This document shows positions 10,459 through 19,967 of a stretch of DNA of 64,000 nt, piece after piece (position 1 is the stretch's first letter; each line of letters begins with the position of its first letter). Source of the stretch: a virus; IMG/VR virus record IMGVR_UViG_3300032931_001151, positions 124,001-188,000 of that record; one strand, 5' to 3'. Position numbers and translations under genes: made by a program. Below the pieces are notes generated by a model. The model searched no databases. It was not told the origin of the DNA and saw only the letters and a program-made list of their open reading frames with translations.

Positions 10459-12198
10459 TTAATCTTCGGATTGCATCTCTTTTTCAAAATTTTCCATGTC
10501 TTGTTCTGGACTTGTATAGCCATCCATGTTGAATATTTTCTTAAAATCACTCAATACTTCTTCGTCTTGAACTTCTTCGGGTCGAGTAGATTGTTGAACT
10601 ACTATTTTACTATAAAAATCATTTTTATTATCATCCCACCACTTTGACCTTAACATATATGATACCCAGTAACTTGCGGCTACTTGGTCGTCCATATTGC
10701 CATTCCCACGTTTAGCAGCAAACTTGCCCGGCTTATTACCCTCTTCATATATTCTTAATTCAACTAATATTGAATTAGCATATATCTTACATACATCACC
10801 TTCAACGTCTTCTTTGAAATTAGTAGTTGCCAAAGGCTTTGTTTGAGCATTGGCGTTTACGCCTAATGTTTGGTTGTCATAATCGTAATAAACGTTCTCG
10901 TAGCCCTTTTCCATATATATTTCGTTTAATAGAATGACGCCTAATCCGGTTCCATTATTTTCACATATAATAGAAGCATTATTATATCTTTTAGCTATAG
11001 TTTGTGCAATAGAAGCAAAATCAAATACATTTATATCATTTCTCTTGTATAGTGCTGCTAATTCATAGTAACCTTCTGTATAGTAATTAGTTACATCATA
11101 TATCGCAACCACCGAATTATCGCTTCCTGCTCCGGAAGATACGTCAAGACCTGCAATATATACTCTTCCGGGTTGAGGGTTAGACCATATGTTGAACCAT
11201 TGACTTTCTTGCTTAATAGGGGTCTTTATCATCTTACCCAACGAATCAAGAGCCGCACCACTTAATAAGGTCTTTGAAGAACCCTCAAATTTACATTCAT
11301 ACTCTTGCAACCACGACTGTAAGGAGCCGAGAGCCGCTATAGTGTCTTTCTTAAATTGCTCATCTCTACCCGGAACCTCCCACCATTCTACTTTGAATGG
11401 AGCAAACGGATAAGTACCATCTTGTTTATTAGCACTTTGCCAAATCTCGTAAAATAGGCCGGCTGGACCATTTGGAGTAGACACCAATATAACTTGACCT
11501 TTATTTCCAATAATTGGAAAATTTGATTTCCAAAATTTATCCGCAATATTCTTAGGAACGAATGCGAATTCATCACAAAAAAGTATCTTAGCCGAGAAAC
11601 CACGCAAGGCATTTTCGGAAGTCGCTGCGCCAAATATTGCCGACCCATTTTCAAATTCTATCTTTGTGTTATTATATTCCGTAACACCTGGCTTCATAAA
11701 TGCGGGCAATCCCTCGTATGCTTTACGAATATCGTCAAGAATTTCAATGGCATTCTTTTGCTTATTAGCCAAAACTGCTATATTGCAATGCTCGTTGAAT
11801 ATAGCCGACCAAAGTAGATATATACAAGAAGTTGTAGTGTTATGACTCACTAAACCATTAGAATAAAATTCATGCTCTTCCGAATCTACTTCAACGTCAT
11901 ACATATTCTCTTCATATCCAAGATTTGATATGTAATTACATGCATAATACCCAACGTCCGTTTCAATTAAAGTTCCAATTTGAATGTCTTGTAAATATAT
12001 CGGAGTATGATCTATTGTATAAAGAATATGTGTATCGGCGGCTTTTAATTCATCTCCGTTAACCAACTTAATGTGCCATACTTCATATGGTATAGTCTTC
12101 ATTACCTTATTGATATTTTTAAATCCTTGTGGAGTTTTTATAAGATAGTTAGAAGGTACGGTAAATACTTCTTCAAATTTTCGTATCGGTTGTTCCAT
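10459..12198 (-). CDS. 17: Terminase large subunit gp17, C-terminal half fused behind the C-part of a split intein
   Basis: 579 aa. Residues 1-120 are the C-terminal part of an intein: a block-B-like ADTHILYT (Thr56/His57) and a block F/G ending EHEFYSNGLVSHN with penultimate His119 and Asn120. The extein begins at Thr121 with TTTS, which completes the Walker A motif started in the gene at 13409-13756. Walker B is ILFCDE (Asp209-Glu210); the nuclease domain shows AGLDVSSGAGSD near 351-362 and MDDQVAASY near the end. After trans-splicing the packaging motor would be about 541 aa (T4 gp17 610 aa). ATG at 12198 has GAGG 8 nt upstream and overlaps the endonuclease gene by 26 bp. Confidence 0.93.
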   Translation of the reverse strand: MEQPIRKFEEVFTVPSNYLIKTPQGFKNINKVMKTIPYEVWHIKLVNGDELKAADTHILYTIDHTPIYLQDIQIGTLIETDVGYYACNYISNLGYEENMYDVEVDSEEHEFYSNGLVSHNTTTSCIYLLWSAIFNEHCNIAVLANKQKNAIEILDDIRKAYEGLPAFMKPGVTEYNNTKIEFENGSAIFGAATSENALRGFSAKILFCDEFAFVPKNIADKFWKSNFPIIGNKGQVILVSTPNGPAGLFYEIWQSANKQDGTYPFAPFKVEWWEVPGRDEQFKKDTIAALGSLQSWLQEYECKFEGSSKTLLSGAALDSLGKMIKTPIKQESQWFNIWSNPQPGRVYIAGLDVSSGAGSDNSVVAIYDVTNYYTEGYYELAALYKRNDINVFDFASIAQTIAKRYNNASIICENNGTGLGVILLNEIYMEKGYENVYYDYDNQTLGVNANAQTKPLATTNFKEDVEGDVCKIYANSILVELRIYEEGNKPGKFAAKRGNGNMDDQVAASYWVSYMLRSKWWDDNKNDFYSKIVVQQSTRPEEVQDEEVLSDFKKIFNMDGYTSPEQDMENFEKEMQSED

Positions 12199-13354
12199 TT
12201 AATTCCTCATTTATTAAATTAACACAATAGTTAATTATAGCATGTTTGTCTTTTTTATAGTCCTTTTCTTTAATATGTATTATTTTTAAAGTAGGATTGA
12301 ATTTTATAATGTTTTCTTCTCTAATTCTATCCCTTTCTTGATTTCCCCTCTTTTCCCCGTGCCAATAATCCCCGTCAAATTCAATACATAGGTTAATTGA
12401 GGGAATAAAAAAATCAAGAAACATCATTTTCTTTTCGGGGGTTATTATCATATATTCAAAATTATCTCCAAATGGATTAATTATGTCTTCATTTTTCCGA
12501 GTTGCATAGTACACTTTTAATTCGTAAGGCAAAAATGACATTATGCTATTAAATAAATCTTGGGATATTTGCGAATAACCCTTACCATTATTCATCTTGG
12601 CTCTTGCTATTCTTTCAATTTCCTCGTCTGGTTTATTTAATAATGTTTCTTGCCATTTATTTTGTCTTTCTTTCCATCTTTTAATTCCCTCTTCCTCACC
12701 AAATTTTTCAATCATTATCTTTTTTGAAAATGTTTGTTGTCTCTCATGAACTTTTTGTTTTGCTTCTTGCTCGGAATATCCCTTTAGTACCCAATATCTC
12801 TCTGATGATGTTGACAAATGGTAGTCCGGATTTTCTTCTTTTCTTTTGGTGAGAGTATCCATCGCCCGTTCTATTCTATTGGTGTTTTTTGCATACCATG
12901 CAGTACTACAAGAAAAGCTACAAAAATCATTAAATCCCCTATCAAATCTAAATCCGTTCTTCTTTCCACATTGCTTACAATGGGTAAAATCTATAGGTTT
13001 CATCATATATTTAATATAATACTCTTCTGTTACCATATTATGTTTCTTTAAATGTCTACTTAAATTTTTCAAAGAGTCAAACAATTCCCCACATTCTTCA
13101 CATTTTATGGTTTTAATAGATTCTCTTCTCTCTTGTTCTAATTCTCTTGTAGATTTTATACTATGTACTTTTTTCTTGTGAGTAGCAAGAGAGATTTTAG
13201 TAGTGCATTTCTCTCCACACACATCGCATATAAAAGGAACTATTCCTTCATATTTCTCAAAATATTCTGCTATATTACACTTATGCACATCTCTTAAGTG
13301 TTGATATAAACAAACATAATTTGGGAACTCTTTATTACATAATTTACAAAGCAT
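12173..13354 (-). CDS. Free-standing Vsr-like homing endonuclease inside the split-intein terminase locus
   Basis: 393 aa. The N terminus has three C2H2-like fingers (CKLCNKEF...HLRDVH, CDVCGEKC...HKKKVH, CEECGELF...HLKKH) and a fourth Cys cluster (CKQCGKK...CSFSC near 125-150), probably for DNA recognition. The C-terminal domain (about 300-380) carries FLDFFIPSINLCIEFDGDYWHG, shown here only as its parts LDFFIP and CIEFDGDYWHG, matching the very-short-patch-repair (Vsr) nuclease fold with catalytic acidic residues. This nuclease type is known from 'fractured genes' where it lies between split-intein halves. It has its own exact late promoter 21 bp upstream. It likely spreads the split locus into intein-free terminase alleles. 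Confidence 0.88.
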   Translation of the reverse strand: MLCKLCNKEFPNYVCLYQHLRDVHKCNIAEYFEKYEGIVPFICDVCGEKCTTKISLATHKKKVHSIKSTRELEQERRESIKTIKCEECGELFDSLKNLSRHLKKHNMVTEEYYIKYMMKPIDFTHCKQCGKKNGFRFDRGFNDFCSFSCSTAWYAKNTNRIERAMDTLTKRKEENPDYHLSTSSERYWVLKGYSEQEAKQKVHERQQTFSKKIMIEKFGEEEGIKRWKERQNKWQETLLNKPDEEIERIARAKMNNGKGYSQISQDLFNSIMSFLPYELKVYYATRKNEDIINPFGDNFEYMIITPEKKMMFLDFFIPSINLCIEFDGDYWHGEKRGNQERDRIREENIIKFNPTLKIIHIKEKDYKKDKHAIINYCVNLINEELNGTTDTKI

Positions 13355-13374
13355 AGTTATTCTCCTTCATAGTA

Positions 13375-13382
13375 TATTTATA
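13375..13382 (-). promoter_or_regulatory. T4-type late promoter box for the homing endonuclease
   Basis: Exact TATAAATA on the minus strand in the 54-bp gap between the terminase N-half and the endonuclease. It would also drive the downstream C-half of the terminase. Confidence 0.65.
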
Positions 13383-13408
13383 TTAGTATACCATATAGGA
13401 AAGAAAGT

Positions 13409-13756
13409 TTAAATACTTTTTATCATATTGAAAAATTCTCCAATTTCTATCTTTTCAATTTTACCACTTATTTTGTCTAATATTTCAACATATTGTTGAG
13501 ATTGAACACATTTTCCACTTTGTCTACCACTCATAACAACTTTGTGACGATTTCCAACGAAATGCTCAAGTAGCCTTTCTTGGAACTCTCTTAAGTTAAT
13601 TACATGTTCTCCCGCATCACTAATAACCTTATAGTAATTGTTAGCAAAATATTTTATGTCTTGTTTACATCTTAAAATTTCGATAACTTGTTCTTCAGTT
13701 AAATTTCTAGTTTGATTTGGCTTTATAACTCCATTTTCATCATATGTAATTGGCAT
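13409..13756 (-). CDS. 17: Terminase large subunit gp17, N-terminal half plus short split-intein N-part
   Basis: 115 aa. Residues 1-82 are the terminase N terminus (NLREFQERLLEHF then VVMSGRQSGK, the first part of Walker A; T4 has SRQLGKTT). Cys83 begins a 33-residue intein N-fragment, CVQSQQYVEILDKISGKIEK and onward, carrying block A only, after which the frame stops. Splitting after block A is atypical: canonical split inteins break much later. Short N-inteins of this kind are known for TerL (the AceL-TerL type). Splicing would join Lys82 to Thr121 of the other half and restore GRQSGKTTTS. Without splicing there is no working ATPase. Confidence 0.92.
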   Translation of the reverse strand: MPITYDENGVIKPNQTRNLTEEQVIEILRCKQDIKYFANNYYKVISDAGEHVINLREFQERLLEHFVGNRHKVVMSGRQSGKCVQSQQYVEILDKISGKIEKIEIGEFFNMIKSI

Positions 13757-18080: not shown

Positions 18081-19889
18081 TCAACAAATCATATTAAATC
18101 TCATATGTCCACAATCATAAATTCTAAATAATCCATTATCTCTCGCAAGTTGTTCTTCGGTTTTCGTGGGATCCCCTTTAAATATCTCTATTAGTTTTTG
18201 TTTTGTATAAGCAAATCTATGCTTTCTTTCAAATGAAGTCCCCTCTCCAACATAATAGTATCCTGGACGAGTATTATAGTCATATGTAAATCCTAGTTTC
18301 TCGTATACTCCACCATTACCCCATCTCAAGTCACAAAATGTTATTAATCTACTATTTTTATGCCCTTCCTTAAATGCTTTAAGTAACTTATTAGCTCCAC
18401 CCATAACTATTGAATCTAATTTAGAACAAAATCTATTTAATTCCCAGTCGTACACATCAATAGATCCTCTCTTTACGATTGACGGTTTGCTAAAAGTCAT
18501 CACGGCAATTAGATCGTCTTTATTAAATAGACCATAAGCAATGTGGGATTTTCCTTGTCCTTGTATATGATTTTCTTCGCAAAACTTTAATGCTATGATA
18601 TTATCTATTTGTTCACAAGTAGTCTCTCTTGCTCCAATTTTATTTTTTGTTTTACCAAAAATATGTGATAATCTCGATTGACAAATATTCTTCTTGAGTC
18701 CCCATTCATCACTAAATATGGTAACTAATCTAATTCCTTTTTCTTTACATTTCTCAAACTTATCCTTATGATAATTAGGATCTACTTTATATTCCGTAGA
18801 ATGCCAATTCAAGCCACAAAATTCAATAGCCGTTTTTGTTTGCTCGTCGTAAATATCTAACTCTAATGGGCTTATAATACTCCTATTGTCATTAGAAATT
18901 TTTCGTCCTAATAGTCCCTCTAAATAATCTTGAACTTCGGTTTGTTGTTTTCTTTTAGTTCCTTTAAAACATTCTGGACATGATAGGTTGTATCTATTAG
19001 CATTTATTTTCTCCCAACTTTTAGAAAATTCATGTCCACAATTATTACATTTAAAGTCTATTGGGGTTGAAATGTTTGAATAAAATTTTGGATTTTTTGG
19101 AAATATATTGCTTGTTTTAAATACTTCAATTGCATGATCGTATAACTTCTTTCTATTAAAAATTTTAGCACATTGTAAGCATTTTACCCCTTTTATAAAA
19201 AGATTAAACGGCGGCTCTTCTTTCACATATCCACAAGTTTTACATTGAAACACTCCTTTATGTCTTGTACCATTATATTTGACAATATGCCAATTTGATG
19301 TTTTAAATTTTTCAACAAGTGTATCTGTTAATGCTTTATTTAGGGTAGTCGGAAGTAACTCTATAGGTTCTATAATAGGAGTCGAGTTATCTTTAATGTC
19401 TTCAATAAATATTTCTACTTTTTTCATCGGCATTAGACCAAAATTTTCTATTTTACACGATTCGCATACGTGTACTTTTCCTATATTATTCCTCTCCCAA
19501 TGAAACAAGGCTTTTATACTATCCTCTTTCCCACATTTTTTACAAATTATATTTAAAACGTCGTCCCATCTACTATAAAAATCTTTTTTCGGATAATATT
19601 CCAAATTATTAGAGTCGCAATATTTTTGTATTAACTCTTTTGGTATTTGTTTTTCGGCATTTCGCTTTTCAGTATTACAATGCGGACACCCTTTACTTAA
19701 ATCAATATTTTTACCTTCTATATTTGATATACTTTTAACGAATATATGTGATGGATTTTGAGAACATCTTAATTTTAAAAGCATATTCTTATTGAAGTTT
19801 TGAATATCTACTTTCTCTACAATTTCACAACCTTTGTTTATAATATACTTTTTAGTTAATTCTTCAAAACTTGGCTTTGGTCTTGGCAT
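18081..19889 (-). CDS. Large zinc-ribbon, Vsr-like homing endonuclease (Hef-type)
   Basis: 602 aa from the ATG at 19889, which has AAGGAA upstream; a frame extends to 19946 but would run through the capsid terminator. Residues 1-330 hold repeated zinc-ribbon modules with paired CxxC (CPHC, CKKC, CESC, CKTC/CLQC, CNNC/CPEC). Then comes a Vsr-type nuclease core, SPLELDIYDEQTKTAIEF followed by CGLNWHSTEY and later VTIFSDEW. The last ~150 residues resemble an acyltransferase-like or DNA-contact domain also seen in phage Hef-type homing enzymes. It is inserted between the capsid and neck genes and carries its own TTTTGGAT promoter motif. A selfish element rather than a structural gene. Confidence 0.82.
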   Translation of the reverse strand: MPRPKPSFEELTKKYIINKGCEIVEKVDIQNFNKNMLLKLRCSQNPSHIFVKSISNIEGKNIDLSKGCPHCNTEKRNAEKQIPKELIQKYCDSNNLEYYPKKDFYSRWDDVLNIICKKCGKEDSIKALFHWERNNIGKVHVCESCKIENFGLMPMKKVEIFIEDIKDNSTPIIEPIELLPTTLNKALTDTLVEKFKTSNWHIVKYNGTRHKGVFQCKTCGYVKEEPPFNLFIKGVKCLQCAKIFNRKKLYDHAIEVFKTSNIFPKNPKFYSNISTPIDFKCNNCGHEFSKSWEKINANRYNLSCPECFKGTKRKQQTEVQDYLEGLLGRKISNDNRSIISPLELDIYDEQTKTAIEFCGLNWHSTEYKVDPNYHKDKFEKCKEKGIRLVTIFSDEWGLKKNICQSRLSHIFGKTKNKIGARETTCEQIDNIIALKFCEENHIQGQGKSHIAYGLFNKDDLIAVMTFSKPSIVKRGSIDVYDWELNRFCSKLDSIVMGGANKLLKAFKEGHKNSRLITFCDLRWGNGGVYEKLGFTYDYNTRPGYYYVGEGTSFERKHRFAYTKQKLIEIFKGDPTKTEEQLARDNGLFRIYDCGHMRFNMIC

Positions 19890-19916
19890 TAATGTTTTCC
19901 TTTTTTGGTCTATAGA

Positions 19917-19934
19917 TATATTATAAATCCAAAA
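19917..19934 (-). promoter_or_regulatory. TTTTGGAT-type promoter before the homing endonuclease
   Basis: Minus strand reads TTTTGGATTTATAATAT. The same TTTTGGAT motif precedes several replication genes, which suggests early or middle expression independent of the capsid gene. Confidence 0.55.
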
Positions 19935-19935
19935 T

Positions 19936-19967
19936 AAAAAAGGCAAGGGTTTTATCCCCTGCCTTTT
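19936..19967 (-). terminator. Rho-independent terminator after the major capsid gene
   Basis: Minus strand AAAAGGCAGGGG, 5-6 nt loop, CCCTTGCCTTTTTT: a G-C rich stem with one wobble and a T run. It insulates the very highly expressed capsid gene from the downstream endonuclease. Confidence 0.82.

Follow-up and report, generated by a model that had tools for sequence, protein, structure and literature searches.

Organization of the TerL Locus

In the 64,000-nucleotide stretch of viral DNA analysed here (positions 124,001 to 188,000 of the IMG/VR record IMGVR_UViG_3300032931_001151, hereafter the window), the gene of a T4-type large terminase, TerL, lies in two pieces on the minus strand, and the listing of open reading frames (ORFs) gives, in this order, an N-half, an endonuclease gene and a C-half (Table 1). 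A preliminary description of the locus had read three ORFs, a Cys1 opening a 33-residue tail at the end of the N-half, and a C-half starting with 120 residues that end in VSHN and run on into TTTS, and all of this was confirmed by the ORF listing and by joining the two halves. The 82-aa N-extein and the 459-aa C-extein together give 541 aa, which is also the length of the intact TerL ORF of the near relative L002. The C-extein contains the remainder of the ATPase domain and an RNase H-like nuclease domain, so that the joined protein has the Walker A/B ATPase and nuclease of a T4-type large terminase, and the AlphaFold2 model of the C-half matches T4 gp17 (3cpe) at 1e-31 in Foldseek.

That joining the halves restores a proper Walker A was borne out by the related phages with an intact terminase that the preliminary description proposed to look for, and which were found as L002 and L005. 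The N-half is 63–67% identical to both across its first 86–89 residues, and their empty Walker A site (L005, SGRQSGKTTTSC; L002, SGRQSGKTVTSC) reads SGRQSGK-TTTS and -TVTS, with nothing inserted between. Each of the three ORFs has its own Shine-Dalgarno-like site, namely AGAAAGGA for the N-half, AAGGAG for the endonuclease and GAGGAA for the C-half, the last sitting within the endonuclease gene.

Table 1. Features of the interrupted TerL locus, in window coordinates.
Feature	Position	Strand	Evidence or remark
TerL N-half ORF	13756-13409	-	115 aa
TerL N-extein, 82 aa, ending ...VVMSGRQSGK (Walker A through invariant Lys)	13511..13756	-	phrog_5989 terminase 5.9e-16
Putative mobile unit proper, Cys1 codon to Asn codon	13510-11839	-	1672 bp
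Split intein N-part, 33 aa, CVQSQQYVEILDKISGKIEKIEIGEFFNMIKSI	13412..13510	-	leave-one-out profile 4.5e-9
Intein Cys1 codon	13510-13508	-
N-half stop codon	13411-13409	-
Spacer, 54 nt	13355..13408	-	AAGGAG Shine-Dalgarno-like site for endonuclease; in-frame stops
Putative homing endonuclease, 393 aa	12173..13354	-	zf-C2H2; phrog_3339; AlphaFold2
Top-scoring C2H2 zinc finger, endonuclease residues 84-105	13040..13105	-	PF00096/PF13894
Nuclease domain, about residues 295-386	12197..12472	-	alignments, profile
Overlap of endonuclease gene end and C-half gene start, 26 bp	12173..12198	-
TerL C-half ORF	12198-10459	-	579 aa
Split intein C-part, 120 aa, ending ...FYSNGLVSHN	11839..12198	-	VidaL, CatC PDB matches; predicted fold
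Last Asn codon of C-intein	11841-11839	-
Thr+1 codon	11838-11836	-
TerL C-extein, 459 aa, starting TTTSCIYLLWS, +1 Thr	10459..11838	-	Terminase_6N 8.5e-16; Foldseek T4 gp17

The Two Parts of the Split Intein

The two tails carry all the residues of a class 1 intein (Cys1, a block-B-type His57, block F Asp101/His109, block G His119-Asn120 and Thr+1), and the 33/120-aa split falls within the range of atypically split inteins, in which the N-part has about 15–37 aa and the C-part holds the remainder (PMC13014065). When the window sequence was left out of the N-intein profile, the profile still recovered the window N-half at 4.5e-9, the next best hit in the window being 0.94, and homologous N-parts occur in >30 loci. 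The window C-intein, searched as a single sequence, matched the engineered Cat intein (CatC, 1.8e-5) and VidaL, and its family profile matched, among solved structures, VidaL at 1e-11 and CatC at 3.7e-7, the two top rows of that search, Tako8, being summed weak matches to a repeat protein. The TIGR01443 model also exceeds its cut-off on the C-intein. Given the leave-one-out score, the VidaL and CatC matches and TIGR01443, we dismiss a chance origin of the intein halves.

The predicted structure agrees with this assignment. In the AlphaFold2 model of the C-half (predicted local distance difference test score, pLDDT, 82), the C-part adopts a Hint fold that Foldseek matches to VidaL, Cat, gp41-1 and other inteins (6vgv/6dsl), with a root-mean-square deviation of 2.0 across 97 columns to VidaL 6vgv. 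Related C-inteins are under purifying selection, the ratio of non-synonymous to synonymous substitution rates (dN/dS) being 0.12 and 0.18 in two pairs. The atypically split intein that had been proposed within Walker A stands, and so do its Thr+1 and its N-part of about 33 residues. No further intein was found in the same 214-kb record, no RNA family was given by Rfam in the window, and the GTDB genome collection yielded no confirmed relative of the C-intein.

The Endonuclease between the Halves

The 393-aa protein encoded between the halves has N-terminal C2H2-type zinc fingers, a central conserved region and a C-terminal Vsr-like/EDxHD nuclease domain; it matches the homing endonuclease family phrog_3339 at 7.6e-10, and its AlphaFold2 model has a pLDDT of 90. 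In the nuclease domain, which has E325-F-D327-G in the window, D314, E325-x-D327-G, W331-H332 and E363 are invariant or nearly so among 44 relatives. The fold search with the whole protein gave zinc-finger matches only among the matches listed, after which the nuclease domain was profiled alone against solved structures; the best match, and the sole one below E 0.5, was 3r3p (E 0.0023), with Vsr at 3.4. The entry 3r3p is listed as “Mobile intron protein”, and we take it to be the catalytic domain of I-Bth0305I. Among 30 members of the endonuclease family, MTES_1575 was recognized by Pfam in 25, DUF559 in 13 and Vsr in 1. Given these matches, the homology to I-Bth0305I and Vsr is consistent, and the label “Vsr-like”, which the preliminary description had given together with the zinc fingers, is supported, although the scores are weak. 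In EDxHD enzymes, tethered modules serve to bind long targets (PMC3943268).

Two further ORFs resemble this endonuclease. One is a 621-aa ORF with a TTG start at 18081-19946 of the window (minus strand), adjoining the major capsid gene, which belongs to a homing-endonuclease family (phrog_559/3339) and has a Mom-like C-terminal stretch; the other, a second ORF of 392 aa, lies outside the window (G000:C1:109788-109988, plus strand) and has a nuclease domain of this type (E 3.9e-7).

Relatives in Viral Contigs and Cultured Phages

A related intein at this exact TerL spot is widespread among relatives: the C-intein profile recovered 57 viral loci, mostly T4-type TerL genes broken at the same Walker A Lys/Thr(Ser) junction. 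Besides the cultured PhiW-14 and Atu_ph07, about 50 viral loci have such an intein at that junction. The order N-half, endonuclease, C-half is shared by about 20 other contigs, some of them near-identical. In most loci that have the endonuclease, its gene overlaps that of the C-half by about 3–40 bp. Split copies lacking the endonuclease also occur (L028, L053 and L060), as does an unsplit, contiguous copy (L050). In another locus (L069:4834-7932) the endonuclease is fused in frame to the intein C-part and C-extein in a 1033-aa ORF, and the TerL of L057:5938-8223 carries two inteins, a split one in Walker A and a contiguous one near Walker B.

In cultured phages, the C-intein has matches in 314 records. 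The TerL of Delftia phage PhiW-14 (L230:3400-5758) is split at the same site with no endonuclease, and its N-half ORF, which ends ARQMGK/CVQGDTEIKLRK..., is unannotated in GenBank. In Agrobacterium phage Atu_ph07 (L234:3519-5710) the TerL intein is likewise split and lacks an endonuclease, and it has Ser1 and Thr+1; therefore, its splice-junction nucleophiles are not Cys, and it is a candidate cysteine-independent split intein. In the phages Kuja and CBA120 the TerL intein is contiguous.

A TerL in three pieces is that of L006, a 305-kb record in which the N-half (L015:16230-16949, minus strand) and the C-half (L015:951-2300, minus strand) are about 14 kb apart, a separation resting on one assembly. 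A group I intron of 310 bases (RF00028, 56.1 bits against a gathering cut-off of 50) sits in the N-half one codon before Cys1, and its removal gives the frame RQMGK-CVSPETKLTIRNK; the C-half contains a second split intein at QEYD/CNFLG. Judging from these sequences, completion of the L006 motor would take one RNA splicing step and two rounds of protein trans-splicing. An intein and an intron together in a TerL gene have been described in Campylobacter phage IBB_35 (PMC3322345).

Sporadic Distribution and Probable Mobility

In the TerL tree, intact and intein-bearing sequences interleave, requiring at least 9 intein gains or losses, and because of this interleaving the element is sporadic and probably mobile. 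The window TerL groups with the intact L002 and L005 (100/100*), and a constraint placing it beside L004 and L019, which host two of the inteins closest to its own, was rejected (p 2e-51). In the intein tree, by contrast, the window falls in one clade (100/99) with L018 (on the L004 contig), L020 and L019. Between the window and L004, the C-inteins are 68% identical and the C-exteins 40%. This conflict between the trees, together with the difference in identity, is the pattern that horizontal movement predicts.

No sign of a co-conversion tract was seen in the DNA comparison with L002 and L005, whose identity to the window is 0.73–0.83 in the 30-base bins flanking the site, not above that of the remaining downstream extein. 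We also considered endonuclease swapping among inteins. In the endonuclease tree, the window has L020 as its partner (98/97*) and a grouping with L018 is rejected (p 0.0018), but discordance was not shown, given that the intein data do not reject window plus L020 (p 0.17).

Proposed Mechanism and Alternative Explanations

All this makes it very probable that the window carries a fractured T4-type TerL, whose halves are trans-spliced by the split intein, and whose element is spread by the homing endonuclease encoded between them. A class 1 intein (Cys1, Thr+1), split after its first helix, would interrupt TerL between the invariant Lys and the Thr of Walker A, and the two precursors would be translated separately, each from a ribosome-binding site of its own. 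The 33-aa and 120-aa parts would then associate into a single Hint fold and, by the chemistry known for class 1 inteins, form a thioester at Cys1, transfer it to Thr+1 and cyclise Asn120, so that 82 and 459 residues would be joined by trans-splicing to give a normal packaging motor of 541 aa. Since Walker A is broken, no ATPase activity is expected of the motor until it is spliced, as the preliminary description had likewise inferred. Cleavage by the zinc-finger, Vsr-like (EDxHD) endonuclease is most likely directed at the empty site of co-infecting relatives, and repair of the cut may copy the 1.7-kb block of N-intein, endonuclease and C-intein.

Several observations weigh against parts of this explanation. 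The PF14890 score of the C-intein is under the gathering cut-off of that model; the sequence match of the nuclease domain to I-Bth0305I and Vsr is weak, and the whole-endonuclease fold search was swamped, with zinc-finger matches only among the matches listed. Repeated loss could also account for the sporadic distribution. Finally, no contig was found with the exact TerL of the window in both filled and empty states, and a recent homing event is therefore not directly seen.

It is unlikely, in our opinion, that the fracture is more than selfish in this clan and that trans-splicing at Walker A gates DNA packaging, with a TerL in up to three pieces needing one or two protein trans-splicings (and RNA self-splicing as well in one relative), and with split inteins outlasting the loss of the endonuclease. 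A domesticated switch, in which the same anatomy is kept because trans-splicing times or gates packaging, would agree with the persistence of endonuclease-less split inteins, with the purifying selection on related inteins and with a break that disables ATP binding until splicing; however, the window endonuclease is intact, the nearest relatives have no intein, and selfish persistence explains the data equally well, which leaves this switch improbable. Lower still we place a decayed element, with an intein that splices poorly or not at all in a phage that is defective or uses a second terminase. The window does come from a metagenomic record, but the class 1 residues and TerL motifs are all intact, the 214-kb record gives a single TerL match, purifying selection acts on related C-inteins, and copies without the endonuclease have kept their split inteins. 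There is also a precedent for halves that associate non-covalently and function unspliced, in the two-piece working ribonucleotide reductase split by a homing endonuclease that is cited in PMC10448857, but here Walker A itself is broken, and both intein tails keep all the splicing residues and are recurrently conserved, as would be unexpected without splicing, so that we give this explanation very little weight. An assembly or sequencing artefact, including the frameshift that the preliminary description had named as a way to overturn its reading, is the least credible of all even for a single metagenomic record, because every ORF comes with a separate Shine-Dalgarno-like site and about 20 further contigs have the three genes in this order, with natural split copies in the cultured PhiW-14 and Atu_ph07, a recurrence that refutes an artefact as the source of the architecture as such.

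Comparison with Known Systems

Fractured genes, split within an intein and with a free-standing, Vsr-like endonuclease gene between the halves, were reportedly described by Dassa in 2009. The window shares with them the separately encoded halves and the endonuclease gene between, but differs in its host, a T4-type TerL broken at Walker A, and in its atypical 33/120 split, as opposed to the usual long N-part and short C-part.

The preliminary description had also likened the intein to the AceL-TerL type, and here only the split position was upheld. AceL-TerL, GOS-TerL and Cat, with N-parts of 25, 37 and 30 aa (PMC11766414, PMC13014065), are class 1 inteins of TerL hosts that are split, as in the window, after the first helix to leave a short N-part, but they have Cys+1 and match a second TerL site, whereas the window intein lies in Walker A with Cys1/Thr+1 and, by site and +1 residue, falls outside the AceL/GOS-TerL group. 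That second site (QEYx/CxFLG, Cys+1) is also split in L006 and L007, and the C-intein of L006 there matches CatC at 2.8e-18, versus 1.8e-5 for the window C-intein. VidaL (6vgv) is the nearest solved intein by family profile and has a similar predicted fold, although its N-part has 16 aa (PMC13014065) instead of 33.

The insertion site itself is shared with contiguous, cis-spliced inteins. In mycobacteriophages, the TerL1-a inteins of terminase_1 proteins are inserted after the Lys and before the Thr of Walker A (Kelley et al. 2016, PMC5050341); a contiguous TerL intein is known in the Kuttervirus-type phage Marshall (PMC3853055), and in CBA120, also Kuttervirus-type, we found the insertion between the same two residues. 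I-Bth0305I, of the EDxHD family, is the best solved relative of the nuclease domain and likewise has its nuclease tethered to modular DNA-binding regions (PMC3943268), but it is listed as a mobile intron protein, whereas the window gene, which encodes C2H2-type fingers, is placed between the two halves of a split intein. Both the contiguous Walker A TerL intein and fractured genes were already known, and the window is a well-supported further example of the fractured kind.

What the relatives add is a large, testable family of natural split inteins that share a single site in a single essential motor. Many intermediates are present (endonuclease with split intein, split intein alone, endonuclease fused to the C-part, contiguous and empty), from which the order of intein splitting and of endonuclease gain and loss can be reconstructed. 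A short N-part combined with Cys1/Thr+1 implies a chemistry unlike that of the AceL and GOS-TerL inteins and might supply further labelling pairs, and, with PhiW-14 and Atu_ph07 in culture, mass spectrometry can check directly for natural trans-splicing of a packaging motor. This intein clan is richer than the literature covered here describes, as exemplified by the three-piece TerL, the halves 14 kb apart and the group I intron beside an intein.

Other P-loop ATPases were also found broken in Walker A, at GK/T or GK/S, by inteins of the same clan, their putative functions, as predicted from sequence, being DnaB-like helicase-like (L030 and L063) and AAA-like (L055, L062, L065 and L071).
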